Source of the DNA: a virus
Strand: one strand, 5' to 3'
DNA length: 34,202 nucleotides
Virus record (IMG/VR): IMGVR_UViG_3300009506_000124
Span: 1-34,202 of that record
Shown: piece after piece, positions 4,769-14,402 of the stretch
How positions within the stretch are numbered: position 1 is the stretch's first letter
Layout: each line of letters begins with the position of its first letter
Notes under the pieces: model-generated
What the model saw: only the letters and a program-made list of their open reading frames with translations
What the model was told of the DNA's origin: nothing
Database searches by the model: none
Translations under genes and position numbers: made by a program

Positions 4769-4946
4769 ATCGATTGGTGAATTGATTGAAGAAAAGGAGC
4801 AGGAACTAAAAAACCTGCTCCAAAACTTCCCTGATAAAAGGAATGATCCAGCAGGGGCGGTCGATGCGTTGAACCGTAGCCGGTTACTTTCCCAGGAAAT
4901 CCGCAGCCTGGTTGAAAACAGGACGGGGTCAAATGCCCTACCGTAG
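4752..4946 (+). CDS. small helical protein, 64 aa
   Basis: ATG 4752 overlaps the end of the endolysin gene by 17 bases. The product is charged and helical (ELIEEKEQELKNLLQNF, then LNRSRLLSQEIRSLVENR) and may form a short coiled coil. Compact helical proteins of this kind between lysis and packaging genes include Spo0E-like proteins; the SQEIRSLV end loosely resembles that S-Q-E-L-D type motif but lacks the D. Function is therefore left open. Confidence 0.5.
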   Translation: MSRTPKSIGELIEEKEQELKNLLQNFPDKRNDPAGAVDALNRSRLLSQEIRSLVENRTGSNALP

Positions 4947-5331
4947 CCGGTATCCTTGTGGGTGGCCGGGATGCCCTGAAATTATTCGGGACGGGCGATA
5001 TTGTGAAGAGCACTCAAAGCAGGACCAGCAGCAGCAGGACCAGGACAGGCCAACCGCTGCTGCCAGGGGATACGGGGCCAGGTGGCGCAGGCTTAGGGGA
5101 ATGGTCCTTCACCGGGAGCCGGTATGCCGGGACCCGTTCGGGATCCATGCGAAAAATAACGAAGTGGTTGCTTCCTCCGAAGTGGATCATATAATTCCAC
5201 TGGCCCGAGGAGGAACCAATAAATTAATTAATTTACAGGCTTTATGCAAATCCTGCCACTCAAAGAAAACAATTTTGCTAGATGGTGGATTGGGAAGGGA
5301 AGGGGGGGTCAAATCCCTAGGGCGTTCCTGA
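4933..5331 (+). CDS. HNH endonuclease (packaging-associated)
   Basis: From ATG 4933 the protein is 132 residues. An N-terminal zinc-binding knuckle is visible (C9, C14, C24, H27), then a Q/D-rich linker, then a classical HNH core: SEVDHIIPLARGGTN (83-97), N100, and CKSCHSKK (105-112) supplying H109 and two zinc cysteines. In HK97 and many cos phages an HNH protein next to the small terminase stimulates cos cleavage by the terminase. The position just upstream of the terminase genes supports that role and suggests a cos-type phage. The first 14 bases overlap the previous gene. Confidence 0.85.
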   Translation: MPYRSRYPCGWPGCPEIIRDGRYCEEHSKQDQQQQDQDRPTAAARGYGARWRRLRGMVLHREPVCRDPFGIHAKNNEVVASSEVDHIIPLARGGTNKLINLQALCKSCHSKKTILLDGGLGREGGVKSLGRS

Positions 5332-5392
5332 CCGAGACCAGCCGGGCAATGATTTATATCTGTGCGCGTATTGAATAAAAAAAGTTGGGACC

Positions 5393-5872
5393 ATGCCAGG
5401 AAGAAAACCGAAACCTACTGAACTGAAAAAACTGGAAGGGAATCCAGGGCGAAGGCCGTTGAATGAGAACGAGCCGAAACCTGACCTTGCAGACATTACG
5501 CTCCCCAGGGGGAAACTGCCAAAGGAAGGACAAAACTTGTGGAAGAAACTTGCGCCCAGGCTGCTTGATTTGGGGATCCTCACCGAGGTTGACCTACCGG
5601 CCTTTGAAATGATGTGCCTGCACTATGCACTTGCCAGGGATGCCTTCGAGGTCGTCGATAAATTGGGTCTGTTTGTCAAGGACAGGGAAAATGCTCCCAG
5701 GAAGAATCCTGCTATGCAACTGTTCAGGGACAATTCCGCAGCCTTCAAGGCTTACATGATTGAATTTGGAATGACACCGAGCAGCAGATCCAGGATTGAA
5801 GCAAATCCAATAGATGACGAGCCGAGCCTGGCTGATTTGTTATATGACGGAGTTTTCGATAATGACGAATGA
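5393..5872 (+). CDS. terS: terminase small subunit, P27 family
   Basis: The N-terminus MPGRKPKPTELKKLEGNPG followed by RRPLNENEPKP is the hallmark of P27-type small terminases, which bind the packaging site and hand DNA to the large subunit. The length (159 residues) is normal. A helical middle region and an acidic C-terminus (SLADLLYDGVFDNDE), thought to contact the large subunit, follow. The 61 bases upstream hold no gene. The start of the ParB-like gene overlaps its end by 11 bases. Confidence 0.9.
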   Translation: MPGRKPKPTELKKLEGNPGRRPLNENEPKPDLADITLPRGKLPKEGQNLWKKLAPRLLDLGILTEVDLPAFEMMCLHYALARDAFEVVDKLGLFVKDRENAPRKNPAMQLFRDNSAAFKAYMIEFGMTPSSRSRIEANPIDDEPSLADLLYDGVFDNDE

Positions 5873-6503
5873 ATCCCAAAACGGTAAATTGACTTGGACC
5901 AACGGAAAGCGGAAATTATCCGATTTGATCCCCTGGCCGAAGAATCCCAGGAAGGTATCCGGGGAGCAGGTCCGAGCCCTGCAGGAAAGTTTCGAGGAAT
6001 TTGGTCAACCTGATGTAATTGCAATTGGACCCGACGACGAGTTATACAATGGACACCAGCGATTAACCGCCTGGGGTAAAAAATTTGGTGACATCGAGGT
6101 CGATGTAAGGATTGCTTCCAGGGCATTGACGGAAAAGGAACGGGGAAGACTGGTCGGGTATCTGCATAAAAAGGCCGTAGGGGAATGGGACGAAGAAAAG
6201 CTGCAGGCCTTCCCATTGGAAGAGCTCATCGATTGGGGGTTCAAAGAAAAGGAATTAATCAAGCAGGGGCGGGGGTCCAGTTTGTCCCTGATGGAAGGGG
6301 AATTGTTTATCGGCCCTGAATTATTGGAACGCCACGACTACCTGGTATTTTATTTTGACAATGAGTTTGACTGGCAAGTCGCCTGCGAAAAATTGGAAGT
6401 ATCGAAAACCCTGGGCGGTCAGGTTGGGAAAAAAACCATACAATCAAAAGGACTTGGCCGGGTCCTTGATGGGACCAGGTTACTGGAATTGTTGAATGAT
6501 TGA
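5862..6503 (+). CDS. ParB-like nuclease-domain protein
   Basis: ATG 5862 overlaps the small-terminase stop. The 213-residue protein carries a ParB/sulfiredoxin N-terminal domain: LIPWPKNPRKVS, then ALQESFEEFGQPDVI, then LYNGHQRLTAW, whose GHQR corresponds to the GxRR nucleotide-binding box (here with H-Q). The C-terminal segment DYLVFYFDNEFDWQVACEKL resembles the tail often fused to phage ParB-methylase proteins, but no methylase motif is present. Known members act as CTP-dependent clamps, nucleases or partners of DNA modification enzymes. Being placed between terS and a glycosyltransferase suggests a link to DNA marking or packaging, which is inference. Confidence 0.82.
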   Translation: MTNESQNGKLTWTNGKRKLSDLIPWPKNPRKVSGEQVRALQESFEEFGQPDVIAIGPDDELYNGHQRLTAWGKKFGDIEVDVRIASRALTEKERGRLVGYLHKKAVGEWDEEKLQAFPLEELIDWGFKEKELIKQGRGSSLSLMEGELFIGPELLERHDYLVFYFDNEFDWQVACEKLEVSKTLGGQVGKKTIQSKGLGRVLDGTRLLELLND

Positions 6504-7254
6504 TCAAATACACTGTGCGATAAAATCGTACCGAAGAGCGGGGAAGGTCAAGACTTTGGAAGTGATCCCCTGGGCGAAGGTTTGGATCCCAGAGTCGCAA
6601 TTGGAAGAATATCTGTTCTATTATGACCAGGAACAGTTAATCACTATTCCGGATGAATTGGACGGGAACCTTTGCAGGAAACAAAACGCAATTTTGGACC
6701 GGTCGCCAGCTCCTTGGACAATTATCTTTGATGACGATATTACAGCGATTGGGGTTTGGGACCAGGGGGATCACGTTTACTTAAAACCGGAAGAGATTGA
6801 ACACCTGATATTAATGGGGTTCCAATTGGCGTCTGATTTGGGCGTTGAATTATGGGGGATTAACCAGGGGCGTGATGAATTATGGTATGAAACCTATAAG
6901 CCTTTTAATTTGTTGGCTCCCATTTTGGGACCCTTTCACGGACACTTAGAACCGACCCTCCGGTATGATGAGTCGGTTTTGGGGAAGGATGACTATGACT
7001 TCTGGCTTCAGAACATTCGGAAGATCCGGAAGACGTTGAGATTAAACAAATATCACTACCTTCACGATCATGGGAAGATGCCCGGGGGATTTGTTTCAAT
7101 GCGAACGATGGATCACGAACAGGCTGGGGTTGAAAGGATGCGGGAAAAATGGGGGGACAGGGTCTTCACCCCAGGGGGAACCGCAGGGGGAAGGAAGGCG
7201 ACAGGGAAGAACATTCTCAACAGTATGATCCGGATCCCGATCCCAGGTTGTTGA
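6496..7254 (+). CDS. GT-A glycosyltransferase, TAGT-like
   Basis: The 252-residue protein reads as a GT-A glycosyltransferase similar to the TET-associated glycosyltransferases. It starts with an IKSYRRAGKV segment, then has a hydrophobic strand ending in IIFDDDI (D79-D81, metal and sugar-nucleotide site), a KDDYDFWL motif (164-171) as the catalytic acid region, and PGGFVSMR followed by a KWG segment. Known TAGTs glycosylate hydroxymethylated pyrimidines in phage DNA. No TET/JBP oxygenase or hydroxymethylase is encoded here, so the acceptor could be a host-made base or a protein. It overlaps the ParB-like gene by 8 bases and abuts terL. The fold call is good; the acceptor is unknown. Confidence 0.72.
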   Translation: MIDQIHCAIKSYRRAGKVKTLEVIPWAKVWIPESQLEEYLFYYDQEQLITIPDELDGNLCRKQNAILDRSPAPWTIIFDDDITAIGVWDQGDHVYLKPEEIEHLILMGFQLASDLGVELWGINQGRDELWYETYKPFNLLAPILGPFHGHLEPTLRYDESVLGKDDYDFWLQNIRKIRKTLRLNKYHYLHDHGKMPGGFVSMRTMDHEQAGVERMREKWGDRVFTPGGTAGGRKATGKNILNSMIRIPIPGC

Positions 7255-7255
7255 A

Positions 7256-8923
7256 ATGAAACGCCGATGCGAAGGGTTGACCAGGTCAGGATCCCGCTGC
7301 AAAAATAATGCGATTGATGGATCCAGCTGCTGCTCAATTCACCAGGACCAGGTCATTGAACAGGAATTTTATTTCGATGACAGGGCGGCCAGGGCAGCGG
7401 TCAACTTTTTCGAGAAATTACTTTTCCATGTTAAAGGGGAATGGGCCGGGGAACCTTTCATCCTTCAGGATTGGCAAAAAAAGGAAATCATCGAGCCCTT
7501 ATTTGGTTGGAAAAGGGAATCGGATGGGACCAGGAAATATCGCACCGCATATATTGAAATCCCAAGGAAGAACGGGAAATCTACCCTGGCAGCAGGAATC
7601 GCCTTATATTTGGAATTTGCTGATGGGGAACATGGCGCCGAAGTTTACTCAGCTGCAGCAGATAAGGACCAGGCGAAGATCGTCCACGAATTGGCTAAGG
7701 AAATGGTTGAGAAATCGAAACCCTTGGCTAAAAGGTCAAAGATTTGGAAGAACTCAATCGTGGTGGAAGGGACAAAGTCAACTTATAGGGTCCTTAGTGC
7801 GGATGCCTTCACGAAACATGGGTTAAATGCTCATGGGGTGGTCGTGGATGAATTGCACGTACAACCTAACAGGGAATTGGTTGACGTATTGGTTACGTCA
7901 ACCGGGGCCCGTCGTCAACCGATGGTTGTTTTGATCACTACCGCAGGATTTGACAGGGAGTCGATTTGTTGGGAATATCACGAATACGCCCGCCAGGTCC
8001 AGGAAAAGATAATTGACGACCCGACCTTTTTCTCTTATATTGTAGCTGCTGACCAGGAGGATGACTGGCTTGACGAGCAGGTCTGGAGGAAAGCAAATCC
8101 GGGGCTTGGGGTATCAGTGAAAATTGATTATCTCAGGACCCAGGCGAAAAAGGCCGAGCACGTACCGGCTTATCAGAACACCTTTCGGAGATTACACCTG
8201 AACCAGTGGACCGCCCAGGAGTCCAGGTGGCTGGACCTTCACGAATGGGATGCTTGTAACTTTCCAGTTGACCCTAAACTATTGGAAGGTTCGACATGCT
8301 ATGCGGGATTGGACCTGGCGAACACTTCCGATATTGCGAGTTTGGTCCTCAACTTTTCAGCGGAACAGGGGGAAGCAGAACGACATTACTGGTTGCCTTT
8401 TTTCTGGATCCCTAAAGATAATATGATTGAACGGGTTCGCAAGGACCGGGTCCCTTATGATGCTTGGGTGCGGGATGGGTTGATTATTGCCACTGAAGGG
8501 AATGTCATCGATTACGATTTTATTTTGTCGGAAATTGAGAGATTGGGCGAGATCTACAACATTAAGGAAATTGCGTTCGACCGGTGGGGAGCCTTTCAAA
8601 TATCCTCGCAGCTTGAAGGGATGGGCTTTACAATGGTTGGGTTTGGTCAAGGTTATAAGTCAATGAGTCCTCCGATGACATCATTGCTAAGGTTGGTTCT
8701 GGACCGCAAATTATCACATGGCGGGAATCCGGTTTTAAGATGGATGGCTGATAATTTGGTCGTGGACCAGGATCCAGCAGGGAACGTTAAGCCGAATAAA
8801 AATAAAAGCAGGGAAAAAATAGACGGAATTGTCGCCGGTTTAATGGCATTGGACCGGGCCATTCGGCACGAGGGCCCAGGCACTTCTGTTTACGAAGGAA
8901 GGGGGATCAGGACCCTTGAATAA
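7256..8923 (+). CDS. terL: terminase large subunit with N-terminal zinc motif
   Basis: A 555-residue packaging motor. The ATPase shows a Walker-A-like PRKNGKST (103-110) and Walker B GVVVDELH (194-201). The nuclease shows GLDLAN (D353), AFDRW (D442) and KIDGIVAG (D523). Packaging ATPases pump DNA into the prohead and cut it. The first 30 residues hold C5, C15, C26 and H29 in a CEGLTRSGSRCKN context ending in CSIH, like DUF5763-type zinc motifs. This addition is not normally part of TerL, whose usual beginning corresponds to residue ~33 here. No alternative ATG exists before residue 150 to exclude it. ATG 7256 follows the glycosyltransferase stop directly. Confidence 0.93.
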   Translation: MKRRCEGLTRSGSRCKNNAIDGSSCCSIHQDQVIEQEFYFDDRAARAAVNFFEKLLFHVKGEWAGEPFILQDWQKKEIIEPLFGWKRESDGTRKYRTAYIEIPRKNGKSTLAAGIALYLEFADGEHGAEVYSAAADKDQAKIVHELAKEMVEKSKPLAKRSKIWKNSIVVEGTKSTYRVLSADAFTKHGLNAHGVVVDELHVQPNRELVDVLVTSTGARRQPMVVLITTAGFDRESICWEYHEYARQVQEKIIDDPTFFSYIVAADQEDDWLDEQVWRKANPGLGVSVKIDYLRTQAKKAEHVPAYQNTFRRLHLNQWTAQESRWLDLHEWDACNFPVDPKLLEGSTCYAGLDLANTSDIASLVLNFSAEQGEAERHYWLPFFWIPKDNMIERVRKDRVPYDAWVRDGLIIATEGNVIDYDFILSEIERLGEIYNIKEIAFDRWGAFQISSQLEGMGFTMVGFGQGYKSMSPPMTSLLRLVLDRKLSHGGNPVLRWMADNLVVDQDPAGNVKPNKNKSREKIDGIVAGLMALDRAIRHEGPGTSVYEGRGIRTLE

Positions 8924-11851: not shown

Positions 11852-13126
11852 GTGAAGAAAATTCGTGAATTAAGGGACCGCCGGTCTCAATTATTGGACC
11901 AGGCTACCGCAATGAATGATGCTGCGGAAGCCGAGGATCGGAACTTTTCCCAGGAAGAGCAGGAAAAGTACGACGAGATCCTCGCCGATGCTGCTGAATT
12001 AGAGCAGCGGATCAGCCGGTTGGAAGCAGTACCGGAAAACACTCCCCGCCAGGACATTCGCCAACAGGTCCAGGGACAAAGCGTTAATCGTGGTGGTTTG
12101 GGTGACACCGAGGCGAGGGCCCTGGGAGCCTACCTGAAACGTGGCGATACGGGAGGGGTCAAAGAAATGATGGAAAGGGACGATGGCGAATCAGGTTCAT
12201 CTGTGACCGTCAGGATCCCGACTGCTCTTCAGCAGAGAGCCAACAAAATGTTCGAGCAGCGAGCCGTCGACTCGATTATGAACATTACCACCGCTGCTGA
12301 TGGTGGCGCAGCAGTTCCGACCGGTTTTGCTGGGACTATTGCCCTCCGCATGAATGAAATGAGATTGTCGGAAAGGTTGGGGGTCCGCCCTGTTCCTGGG
12401 GTTGGGACGACCGTCAATTATCCGTTTGAAAATGCGGATCCTTCTGTATTTGCTGCAACTTCAGAACAAGACGACAGCTATGCGCAGACCTACCAGCGGG
12501 ATGTCGCCCCTGTCCTTGCAAATAAAGCCTTCACCCTGGCTAAATACACGAAGAAATTAGCACTGACCGAGGAATTGTTAGACGATGAGGACGCTAACCT
12601 ATTGGCGCACGTTGCCGATTCGGTTGGGCGTGGATTGGGGATCACGCATAACAGTTTGCTAATTACTGAAGTCGCTGCTAATGGGACCAGCCTAAAAACC
12701 TTTGCTTCCGCTTCCGCAATTGCAGCAGGGGAGCCTGAGGATATCGTCTTCAATGACACCCTGTCATACTACCTTGAAGATGCGGGGTCAATTGGTTGGG
12801 TTGTCCGGCCTACAACTTTTGGAACTGTTGCTTCAATAACAGGTTCTGCCAGGTTGTATGCTGAAACACCAGGCGGTTCGTTTGCCCGTGAAATTTTGGG
12901 CTACCCCGCCTATTACTCAAATCAGGCGACCGCAATTGCTGCTTCCGCAAAGTCAATGTATTTCGGTAACTGGTACTTTGTGGGAATGAGGGAAGATCCC
13001 GCCCTCCGGTTCCTGCGAGATCCCTATACCACTGACGGAATTGTTTATCTGAAATACTCATTCCGAGCAGTTTATGGGGTCCTCATTGCCGGGGCCATTG
13101 GATACGGAGCTCACCCGACCGCATGA
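11852..13126 (+). CDS. major capsid protein, HK97 fold
   Basis: Starts at GTG 11852 after CAGGAGTAGTAAC; 424 residues, normal for the family. The first ~110 residues are a charged coiled-coil delta domain that acts as the built-in scaffold (RELRDRRSQLLDQA to EQRISRLEAV), presumably cleaved by the upstream protease. The rest shows the HK97 shell pattern: AVPTGFAGTIALRMNEMRLSE, TVNYPFENADP, KLALTEELLDDED, and the E-loop/P-domain region to RFLRDPYTTDG. Its stop shares ATGA with a glycosyltransferase gene. Confidence 0.93.
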   Translation: MKKIRELRDRRSQLLDQATAMNDAAEAEDRNFSQEEQEKYDEILADAAELEQRISRLEAVPENTPRQDIRQQVQGQSVNRGGLGDTEARALGAYLKRGDTGGVKEMMERDDGESGSSVTVRIPTALQQRANKMFEQRAVDSIMNITTAADGGAAVPTGFAGTIALRMNEMRLSERLGVRPVPGVGTTVNYPFENADPSVFAATSEQDDSYAQTYQRDVAPVLANKAFTLAKYTKKLALTEELLDDEDANLLAHVADSVGRGLGITHNSLLITEVAANGTSLKTFASASAIAAGEPEDIVFNDTLSYYLEDAGSIGWVVRPTTFGTVASITGSARLYAETPGGSFAREILGYPAYYSNQATAIAASAKSMYFGNWYFVGMREDPALRFLRDPYTTDGIVYLKYSFRAVYGVLIAGAIGYGAHPTA

Positions 13127-13779
13127 TTGAAGATGTTCTGGTCTTTACTCCTATTTGGAGATTGGAACCAGAAACGATCAAAGCAGTATTTGACCTGGAA
13201 TGGGACGGACCAAAGTCTGTCCTGTTCCAGGACGATAATCCTGAACCTGAACAAAGGGACCGCCTGAAAAGGAAGGTTTTGAATCACCTTCACCAGTACA
13301 GAAGGGCTCGGGAATTATTCCTGATGGGTCCCTTTGATGCCATGCTGGTGGTTGAGTCTGACATCATTCCGCCCAGGGATGCCTTGAAGAAAATGGCTGC
13401 TGTTGATGCCGATATCGTTTATGGCGTTTACAGGTTCAGGGCTTCCAACGTGATTAACATTTTCGAGTTGTATCCTGGGAAGCCTAGGAACGTTGGAGAG
13501 TCTTTATCTGTCAGGCCTTACAGGTTGGAAGCAGCAGTTCGGGCTGGGGTGGTTGGCTGTTCAGGGGCGGGGTTTGGATGTACTTTAATCCACCGTAAGG
13601 TTTTGGAGCAGATTCCTTTCCGGGTGGAATGGCCTAAAAATGGCGGTTACTGTGATACGCCATTTATAAGGGATGCGCACCTTGAAGGGTTCTCCCAGGC
13701 TGCTGAAATGTCCGTAATTTGTGGACATAAGGACGAAAAAGGTTCTATTTTATGGCCCGAACTCCCGTCAATAGATTGA
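13123..13779 (+). CDS. GT-A/GT2-like glycosyltransferase in the head module
   Basis: A 218-residue protein beginning with a Rossmann-like strand (VLVFTPIWR), then a MLVVESDIIPP segment (about 74-84) in the position of the D-x-D metal/nucleotide-sugar site (here E-S-D). A GAGFGCTLIHRKVLEQ acceptor-region pattern follows, then CDTPFIRDAHLEGF as the likely catalytic loop. Small GT-A enzymes of this kind transfer sugars from UDP- or GDP-sugars. It overlaps the major capsid gene by ATGA and the next glycan-type gene by 28 bases, so translation is coupled to capsid synthesis. Glycosylation of capsid or neck protein, or of host glycans, are the plausible roles. Confidence 0.75.
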   Translation: MIEDVLVFTPIWRLEPETIKAVFDLEWDGPKSVLFQDDNPEPEQRDRLKRKVLNHLHQYRRARELFLMGPFDAMLVVESDIIPPRDALKKMAAVDADIVYGVYRFRASNVINIFELYPGKPRNVGESLSVRPYRLEAAVRAGVVGCSGAGFGCTLIHRKVLEQIPFRVEWPKNGGYCDTPFIRDAHLEGFSQAAEMSVICGHKDEKGSILWPELPSID

Positions 13780-14402
13780 AGGACCGACACCCTGGGGCTG
13801 ATATTTGGATCATTGCTTCCGGTCCTAGTGCAGGATTGGTCGAGCCCAGGTTCTTTGATGGGAAAATCACTATCGGAGTTAACAGGGTTTGGACCAGGTT
13901 CAAAACTGATTACCTGGTGATCAAAGAAACTGCGGTCCTCTCCCAGGCGATTGAAACAGGGTCAACGGTGATTGCTAGCCGTCACAATTGCGGGACCTTG
14001 GCTTATCCGGAAAACAAAGAAAAGGGTGATTATTATTATTTTGATCACGATGACAATGGGTTGGAAGAGGTCAACCTTGATGTTATTGGGACCGATAAAA
14101 TAGTTGTATCCTTTTCGACCATTACTTCAGCGATGAACCTGGCTGCTTACATGGGAGCAAAAAATATTATCCTTGTCGGCCATGATTGTGGATCATTGAA
14201 TGGGATGGTTAATTTTGCTGAATATCCGGAGAATTTACTCAGGGACCCAAAGTTTTATTCTGACTTCCTGGCCAGGATTGAACCGCAAAGCAAAGAAGTT
14301 CGGGCCAGGTTAGAACAGGTCTATGGATGCCTGATTTATTCGCTTAATCCGTATTTGAATTTTGGATTGGAGGGTAACTGCTATGAAAGTAGTCGCAATT
14401 AG
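13752..14402 (+). CDS. DUF115/MptE-like Rossmann protein, possible glycan enzyme
   Basis: A 216-residue protein with IWIIASGPSAG near residue 20 (glycine-rich nucleotide loop), IGVNRVW, then TDYLVIKE, and later AAYMGAKNIILVGHDCG. This pattern belongs to DUF115/MptE-like Rossmann proteins, which include motility-accessory Maf/PseE-type nonulosonate transferases and sialyltransferase-like enzymes. It lies 28 bases inside the end of the preceding glycosyltransferase gene, so the pair probably act together on the same glycan. A donor such as a nonulosonic acid is possible but not shown. Confidence 0.7.
   Translation: MARTPVNRLKDRHPGADIWIIASGPSAGLVEPRFFDGKITIGVNRVWTRFKTDYLVIKETAVLSQAIETGSTVIASRHNCGTLAYPENKEKGDYYYFDHDDNGLEEVNLDVIGTDKIVVSFSTITSAMNLAAYMGAKNIILVGHDCGSLNGMVNFAEYPENLLRDPKFYSDFLARIEPQSKEVRARLEQVYGCLIYSLNPYLNFGLEGNCYESSRN

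Follow-up and report, generated by a model that had tools for sequence, protein, structure and literature searches.

A ParB-fold protein and a TAGT-family glycosyltransferase form a conserved gene pair near phage terminase genes and probably a DNA-modification module

The window, i.e., the whole stretch of DNA that was analyzed, has 34,202 bases; it is a virus record from IMG/VR and is possibly incomplete or a fragment. It contains a series of four intact genes on the plus strand. The first gene, terS, encodes a Terminase_4-type small terminase subunit (5393..5872; PF05119, E=9.1e-21; phrog_83, E=1.3e-36). It is followed by the gene of a ParB/Srx-fold partner protein of about 212 amino acids (about 5862..6503; phrog_498, 1.4e-16; phrog_620, 1.9e-14), by the gene of a TAGT-family GT-A glycosyltransferase (GT) of 252 amino acids (6496..7254), and by terL, which encodes the large terminase subunit with TerL_ATPase and TerL_nuclease domains (7256..8923; PF20441, 6.7e-50; PF03354, 1.5e-28). 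An earlier note on this DNA had placed the ParB-like and GT genes between terS and terL, and the order terS-ParB-GT-terL is as claimed there. The same note described the genes as overlapping. This is correct for terS and the ParB-like gene (about 11 nt) and for the ParB-like gene and the GT gene (8 nt), but the GT stop codon and the terL ATG merely abut, with 1 nt between them. The ParB-like gene likely starts at the ATG at 5862; an alternative, longer frame starts at the ATG at 5814. A gene of an HNH endonuclease (4912-5331; PF01844, 3.5e-12) is located directly 5' of terS.

The assignment of the GT to TAGT-like GT-A enzymes, proposed in the earlier note, was confirmed by several kinds of evidence. 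Residues 2-221 match PHROG 842, beta-glucosyl-HMC-alpha-glucosyltransferase (E=3.8e-13). The window protein alone matches the TAGT profile PF20691 weakly (E=0.003, 17.9 bits, which is below the Pfam gathering score of 27.5 bits), and the profile matches 68 of the 69 aligned family members (E<=0.01; best 7.3e-21). A phmmer search of the PDB with the GT sequence alone gave nothing significant. The AlphaFold2 model of the GT (pLDDT 91.8, pTM 0.90) has a GT-A fold; no other fold was indicated by the structure check. In fold searches it significantly matches GT-A enzymes from the PDB (best E=8e-6, TM about 0.5). It also matches viral TAGT-type proteins from BFVD and the beta-glucosyl-HMC-alpha-glucosyltransferase of a Klebsiella phage (TM about 0.76-0.83), with values of 0.77-0.78 for a viral TAGT and a T-even-type beta-glucosyl-HMC-alpha-glucosyltransferase.

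Both sequence motifs singled out previously, IIFDDDI and KDDYDFW, are real and nearly invariant across 68 homologues. The first includes the DDD (DxD) metal/nucleotide-sugar motif (residues 79-81; 6730..6738, plus strand), with D79 and D80 found in 68/68 homologues and D81 in 67/68. The second includes KDDYD (residues 164-168; 6985..6999, plus strand), a candidate catalytic acid/base, where K164 is conserved in 62, D166 in 67, and D168 in 63 of the 68 sequences. With D79 and D80 kept in every homologue and D166 in nearly every one, the GT looks active.

The second protein of the pair was also correctly recognized as ParB-like. Its best PHROG match is to a DNA-methylase N-domain/ParB family (E=1e-16), and a PDB comparison of its AlphaFold2 model found the folds of ParB-N, Noc, and sulfiredoxin. 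Among 54 ParB homologues N27 and G63 are invariant, and R66 of the P-motif is present in 52. The ParB_N profile PF02195 matches 40 of the 54, the window copy not being among them. However, conservation in GT-linked ParBs peaks not in the ParB core but in the C-terminal ~65 residues. This C-terminal domain (6300..6500 in the window, plus strand) is described by the pattern E..Y-x-V..F-D-N-xx-D-W ... G-x-G-R-V; E155 and R199 are invariant in the 54 homologues, and Y159, F164, D169, W170, and G198 are conserved in 98% of them. A profile of the domain matches 8/8 GT-linked ParBs outside the IMG/VR set and 0/4 ParBs from ParB-methylase or ParB-ATPase loci. A methylase domain was sought in the window ParB and was not found. 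A role in ParABS partition was considered and rejected: the HTH of ParB is replaced by the different C-terminal domain, and no ParA was detected among the scanned window proteins.

Homologues of the pair were obtained from IMG/VR, phage records, and bacterial genomes. A single-sequence scan of IMG/VR gave no relatives; they were found by profile scans, and the best 80 of 289 relatives were taken. After removal of near copies, 59 loci had at least 900 bp of upstream flank. Two terminase-linked pairs served as seeds of this sample, and its percentages therefore describe this clade rather than all TAGTs. Homologues from bacterial genomes lie on contigs of Treponema, Bacteroides, Roseibacillus, Phascolarctobacterium, and Victivallaceae.

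In the loci from these best 80 of 289 relatives, the 700 bp upstream of the GT contain a ParB homologue in 49/59 cases; if loci with intervening genes are included, ParB is upstream of the GT in 56/59. The intervening gene is a second GT in four loci (L036, L065, L072, L091) and a methylase in one (L095); another locus has two other genes in between (L057), and in L033 ParB is about 2 kb away from the GT. The three loci without ParB are all T4-like. The distance matrices of ParB and GT are correlated (Mantel r=0.74; permutation maximum 0.23). When the window was compared with Streptococcus phage Javan291 and Microbacterium phage Crisis, ParB and GT were the only proteins clearly shared with either. 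The rest of the comparison amounted to one weak match in an antisense frame, and no clear third protein common to all three was found. Isolated Microbacterium phages, too, carry the module. Phosphoesterase and AAA genes occur near some copies of the pair and are too poorly conserved to be regarded as core parts.

A reciprocal test was based on two IMG/VR scans seeded from ParB, with dereplicated contigs independent of the GT scan. The pattern of the first scan was the C-terminal domain itself, so that it samples this clade by design. A TAGT gene comes next after ParB in 38/38 cases with the domain and in 3/45 without it (Fisher p=2e-20). None of the 38 ParBs with the domain is fused to a methylase, whereas fusion to an N6/N4 methylase was seen in 26 of the 45 that lack it. 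The terL gene is found within 5 kb of ParB in 35/38 and 29/45 cases, respectively. The conserved unit is the ParB-GT pair with a dedicated C-terminal domain of ParB. We found no description in the literature that pairs ParB with a TAGT, a glycosyltransferase, or a terminase; an earlier mention in Iyer et al. 2013, reportedly the paper that named TAGT, is possible.

The linkage to packaging genes suggested by the earlier note is also common. TerL lies within 3 kb of the GT in 46 of the 56 loci with enough flank (again among the best 80 of 289 relatives), so the case of homologues that are never near packaging genes did not occur. The pair is usually located upstream of terS and sometimes, as in the window, between terS and terL. 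A few loci have their terminase about 3-5 kb away, encoded on the other strand. In Crisis the record begins with terS at position 1, and the pair lies ~2.5 kb from the end of the record; the two may thus be linked across the ends. The downstream terminases (n=55) belong to several Pfam classes, namely Terminase_6N (19), GpA (13-14), Terminase_3 (13), and TerL_ATPase (5), and the GT tree implies about 20 changes of class. As these classes are unrelated, the pair moves between packaging systems while keeping its place.

The GT adjoins terL, and ParB is the one protein that nearly always accompanies it; both facts would be expected if the GT modified a protein (a packaging protein, a virion protein, or ParB itself) and the terminase neighbourhood reflected the substrate. 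In the window, moreover, the interval from the major capsid gene to the head-tail connector encodes two further sugar enzymes. One is a GT-like protein resembling mycobacteriophage glycosyltransferases (13123-13779; phrog_12406, 4e-6); the other is an MptE/DUF115, sialyltransferase-like protein (13752-14402; phrog_4603, 2e-7). These two enzymes could possibly glycosylate the capsid, and they make protein glycosylation a plausible theme of this genome. As parts of the system around the pair they were rejected: the GT-like protein (P0002) has matches in the window alone, i.e., in 1/38 records, which also tells against a common protein substrate. The earlier note had offered the marking of a packaging protein as one possibility, and the several unrelated terminase classes argue against any single such target. 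Neither is a packaging-protein substrate indicated by the position of the pair, because the slot is also used by DNA methylases linked to ParB and by further enzymes that modify bases. Given also that TAGT relatives work in DNA glycosylation, we regard a protein substrate as unlikely.

Phage ParB-DNA methyltransferases (PF02195 + PF01555) have a homologous ParB domain and often take the same place before the terminase, as in P8625, Javan105, and many IMG/VR contigs. In them the methylase is fused in cis, while here ParB has a distinct C-terminal domain and the GT is encoded in trans. Of the remaining ParBs that lack the C-terminal domain, those of L194, L210, L230, and L235 adjoin a C5-cytosine methylase (PF00145, E<1e-38). 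In L239 and L268, also from this group, and, by annotation, in Fusobacterium phage phiFN37 (L272), a ParB-like gene is followed by a gene of a DpdA-like transglycosylase and one of a YhhQ/Vut_1 transporter. The DpdA-like proteins were recognized by tblastn to annotated phages; the TGT profile PF01702 did not recognize them. DpdB, the partner of DpdA, has been described as an ATPase of ParB-like type (PMC12839542), and the 7-deazaguanine DNA modification by DpdA/DpdB is similar to our case in that a ParB-like NTPase is paired with a base-modifying enzyme. However, DpdA is a transglycosylase that exchanges a base, and the window enzyme is a nucleotide-sugar transferase. ParBc proteins of unknown role were reported to adjoin phage carboxymethylcytosine enzymes (PMC12783734); in this CmoA/CmoX system a ParBc-domain protein is often near the base-modifying enzyme, but its chemistry is C5-carboxymethyl transfer, and its description does not include a ParB-glycosyltransferase pair. 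Together, the linkages to methylases, DpdA-like proteins, and carboxymethylcytosine enzymes indicate that ParBs related to that of the window repeatedly partner DNA-base-modifying enzymes. It is very improbable, for this reason and because of the TAGT kinship of the GT, that the pair acts on nucleotides or RNA instead of DNA, as an accessory set for counter-defence or regulation, even though ParB-fold proteins bind diverse NTPs (PMC12704722).

We consider it likely that ParB and GT constitute a two-gene DNA-modification module, in which a ParB-partnered DNA glycosyltransferase acts late, before packaging. The computed basis for this is the GT-A fold with its motifs, the TAGT kinship, the nearly constant presence of ParB, its partner-specific domain, and the shared slot. 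We infer DNA as the acceptor, recruitment of the GT by ParB, and a protective effect. The ParB-fold protein would serve as a nucleotide-dependent DNA-binding partner, as has been described for DpdB with DpdA, and its C-terminal domain would be an adaptor bringing the GT to phage DNA. The GT would then act late in infection, on DNA that is replicated but not yet packaged by the terminase, and attach to a base of this DNA a sugar taken from a nucleotide-sugar donor; the packaged genome would consequently resist host nucleases. The earlier description of the two genes as a DNA- or virion-modifying pair of the packaging operon is thereby narrowed: TAGT kinship and slot favour DNA modification, and the conserved unit is ParB-GT.

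One fact counting against DNA-base glycosylation by the module is that the characterized TAGT relative glycosylates a sugar already present on hmC. In T6-like phages TAGT is proposed to add a second glucose onto glucosyl-hmC in DNA (PMC13390438). The window GT is similar to the TAGTs of PF20691, including the beta-glucosyl-HMC-alpha-glucosyltransferase of T2/T6, in its GT-A fold, DxD and K-x-D-x-D motifs, family profile, and nearly full-length structure. It differs from known TAGTs in its surroundings. They are accompanied by TET/JBP or by dCMP hydroxymethylase and a first glucosyltransferase; the GT studied here has a ParB-fold protein as its constant partner, and no hydroxylating enzyme was recognized. 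A GT homologue of Citrobacter phage NM4.3 (T4-like) is encoded between dCMP hydroxymethylase and DNA beta-GT.

The TAGT family owes its name to an association with TET/JBP. To our knowledge, phage DNA is glycosylated only after a hydroxyl handle has been installed, and we know of no hydroxyl-bearing base in pair-carrying phages or their likely hosts. We detected no thymidylate-synthase-type hydroxymethylase or C5 methylase in the window, whose record may be a fragment. In agreement with the earlier note, no TET/JBP oxygenase was recognized in the window by a search that had no positive control. Among 50 records, many of them fragments, dCMP hydroxymethylase of the TS type (PF00303) is present only in three T4-like ones and in none that is ParB-linked, unlike in T-even hmC glucosylation. 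A C5 methylase occurs in 1/50 records, and TET/JBP (PF12851) in 0/50, the control genome being silent too. No handle enzyme is annotated in the records of Javan291 and Crisis.

The family name and the T4-like relatives beside dCMP hydroxymethylase would fit a conventional TAGT pathway, where a hydroxymethyl or hydroxy base comes from a host enzyme or an unrecognized phage enzyme, the GT decorates it, and ParB is incidental. The scarcity of handle enzymes in the 50 records, the lack of a clear third protein common to the window, Javan291, and Crisis, and the association of the ParB domain with a TAGT neighbour (38/38 against 3/45) make this improbable, slightly more so than a protein substrate. 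A bolder version of the DNA-modification module, which we regard as possible though rather doubtful, is that ParB and TAGT alone glycosylate an unmodified base without a hydroxyl handle, and that interchangeable ParB adaptors deliver different enzymes to DNA before packaging. In any case, new chemistry or a hidden pathway is to be expected where a widespread module has a TAGT and no recognizable handle enzyme. The module also suggests a role for the unexplained ParBs near phage DNA-modifying enzymes, namely that of delivery partners with enzyme-specific adaptor domains.

Sugar genes adjoin some copies of the pair: UDP-galactopyranose mutase (L036), Polysacc_synt_2 (L083), and UDP-glucose dehydrogenase (Microbacterium). 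FkbM or Methyltransf_23/25 methylases are located between ParB and GT in some copies. The sugar donor probably varies between phages. Two tandem TAGT genes follow ParB in L036, L065, L072, and L091, which suggests a stepwise addition of two sugars.

Several other neighbours of ParBs were observed. In phage phiFN37 a single region contains three ParBs, one of which adjoins a PAPS reductase. L024 has, beside its ParB-GT pair, another ParB with a radical-SAM protein after it (4883-6851), and a ParB is located near a radical-SAM-like protein in L220; these are possibly another base-modifying module. Upstream of the terminase, ParB is followed by a P-loop ATPase in L114 (4510-5610) and L113 (4489-5166), with a fusion to a GNAT domain in Pasteurella phage Pmp13.
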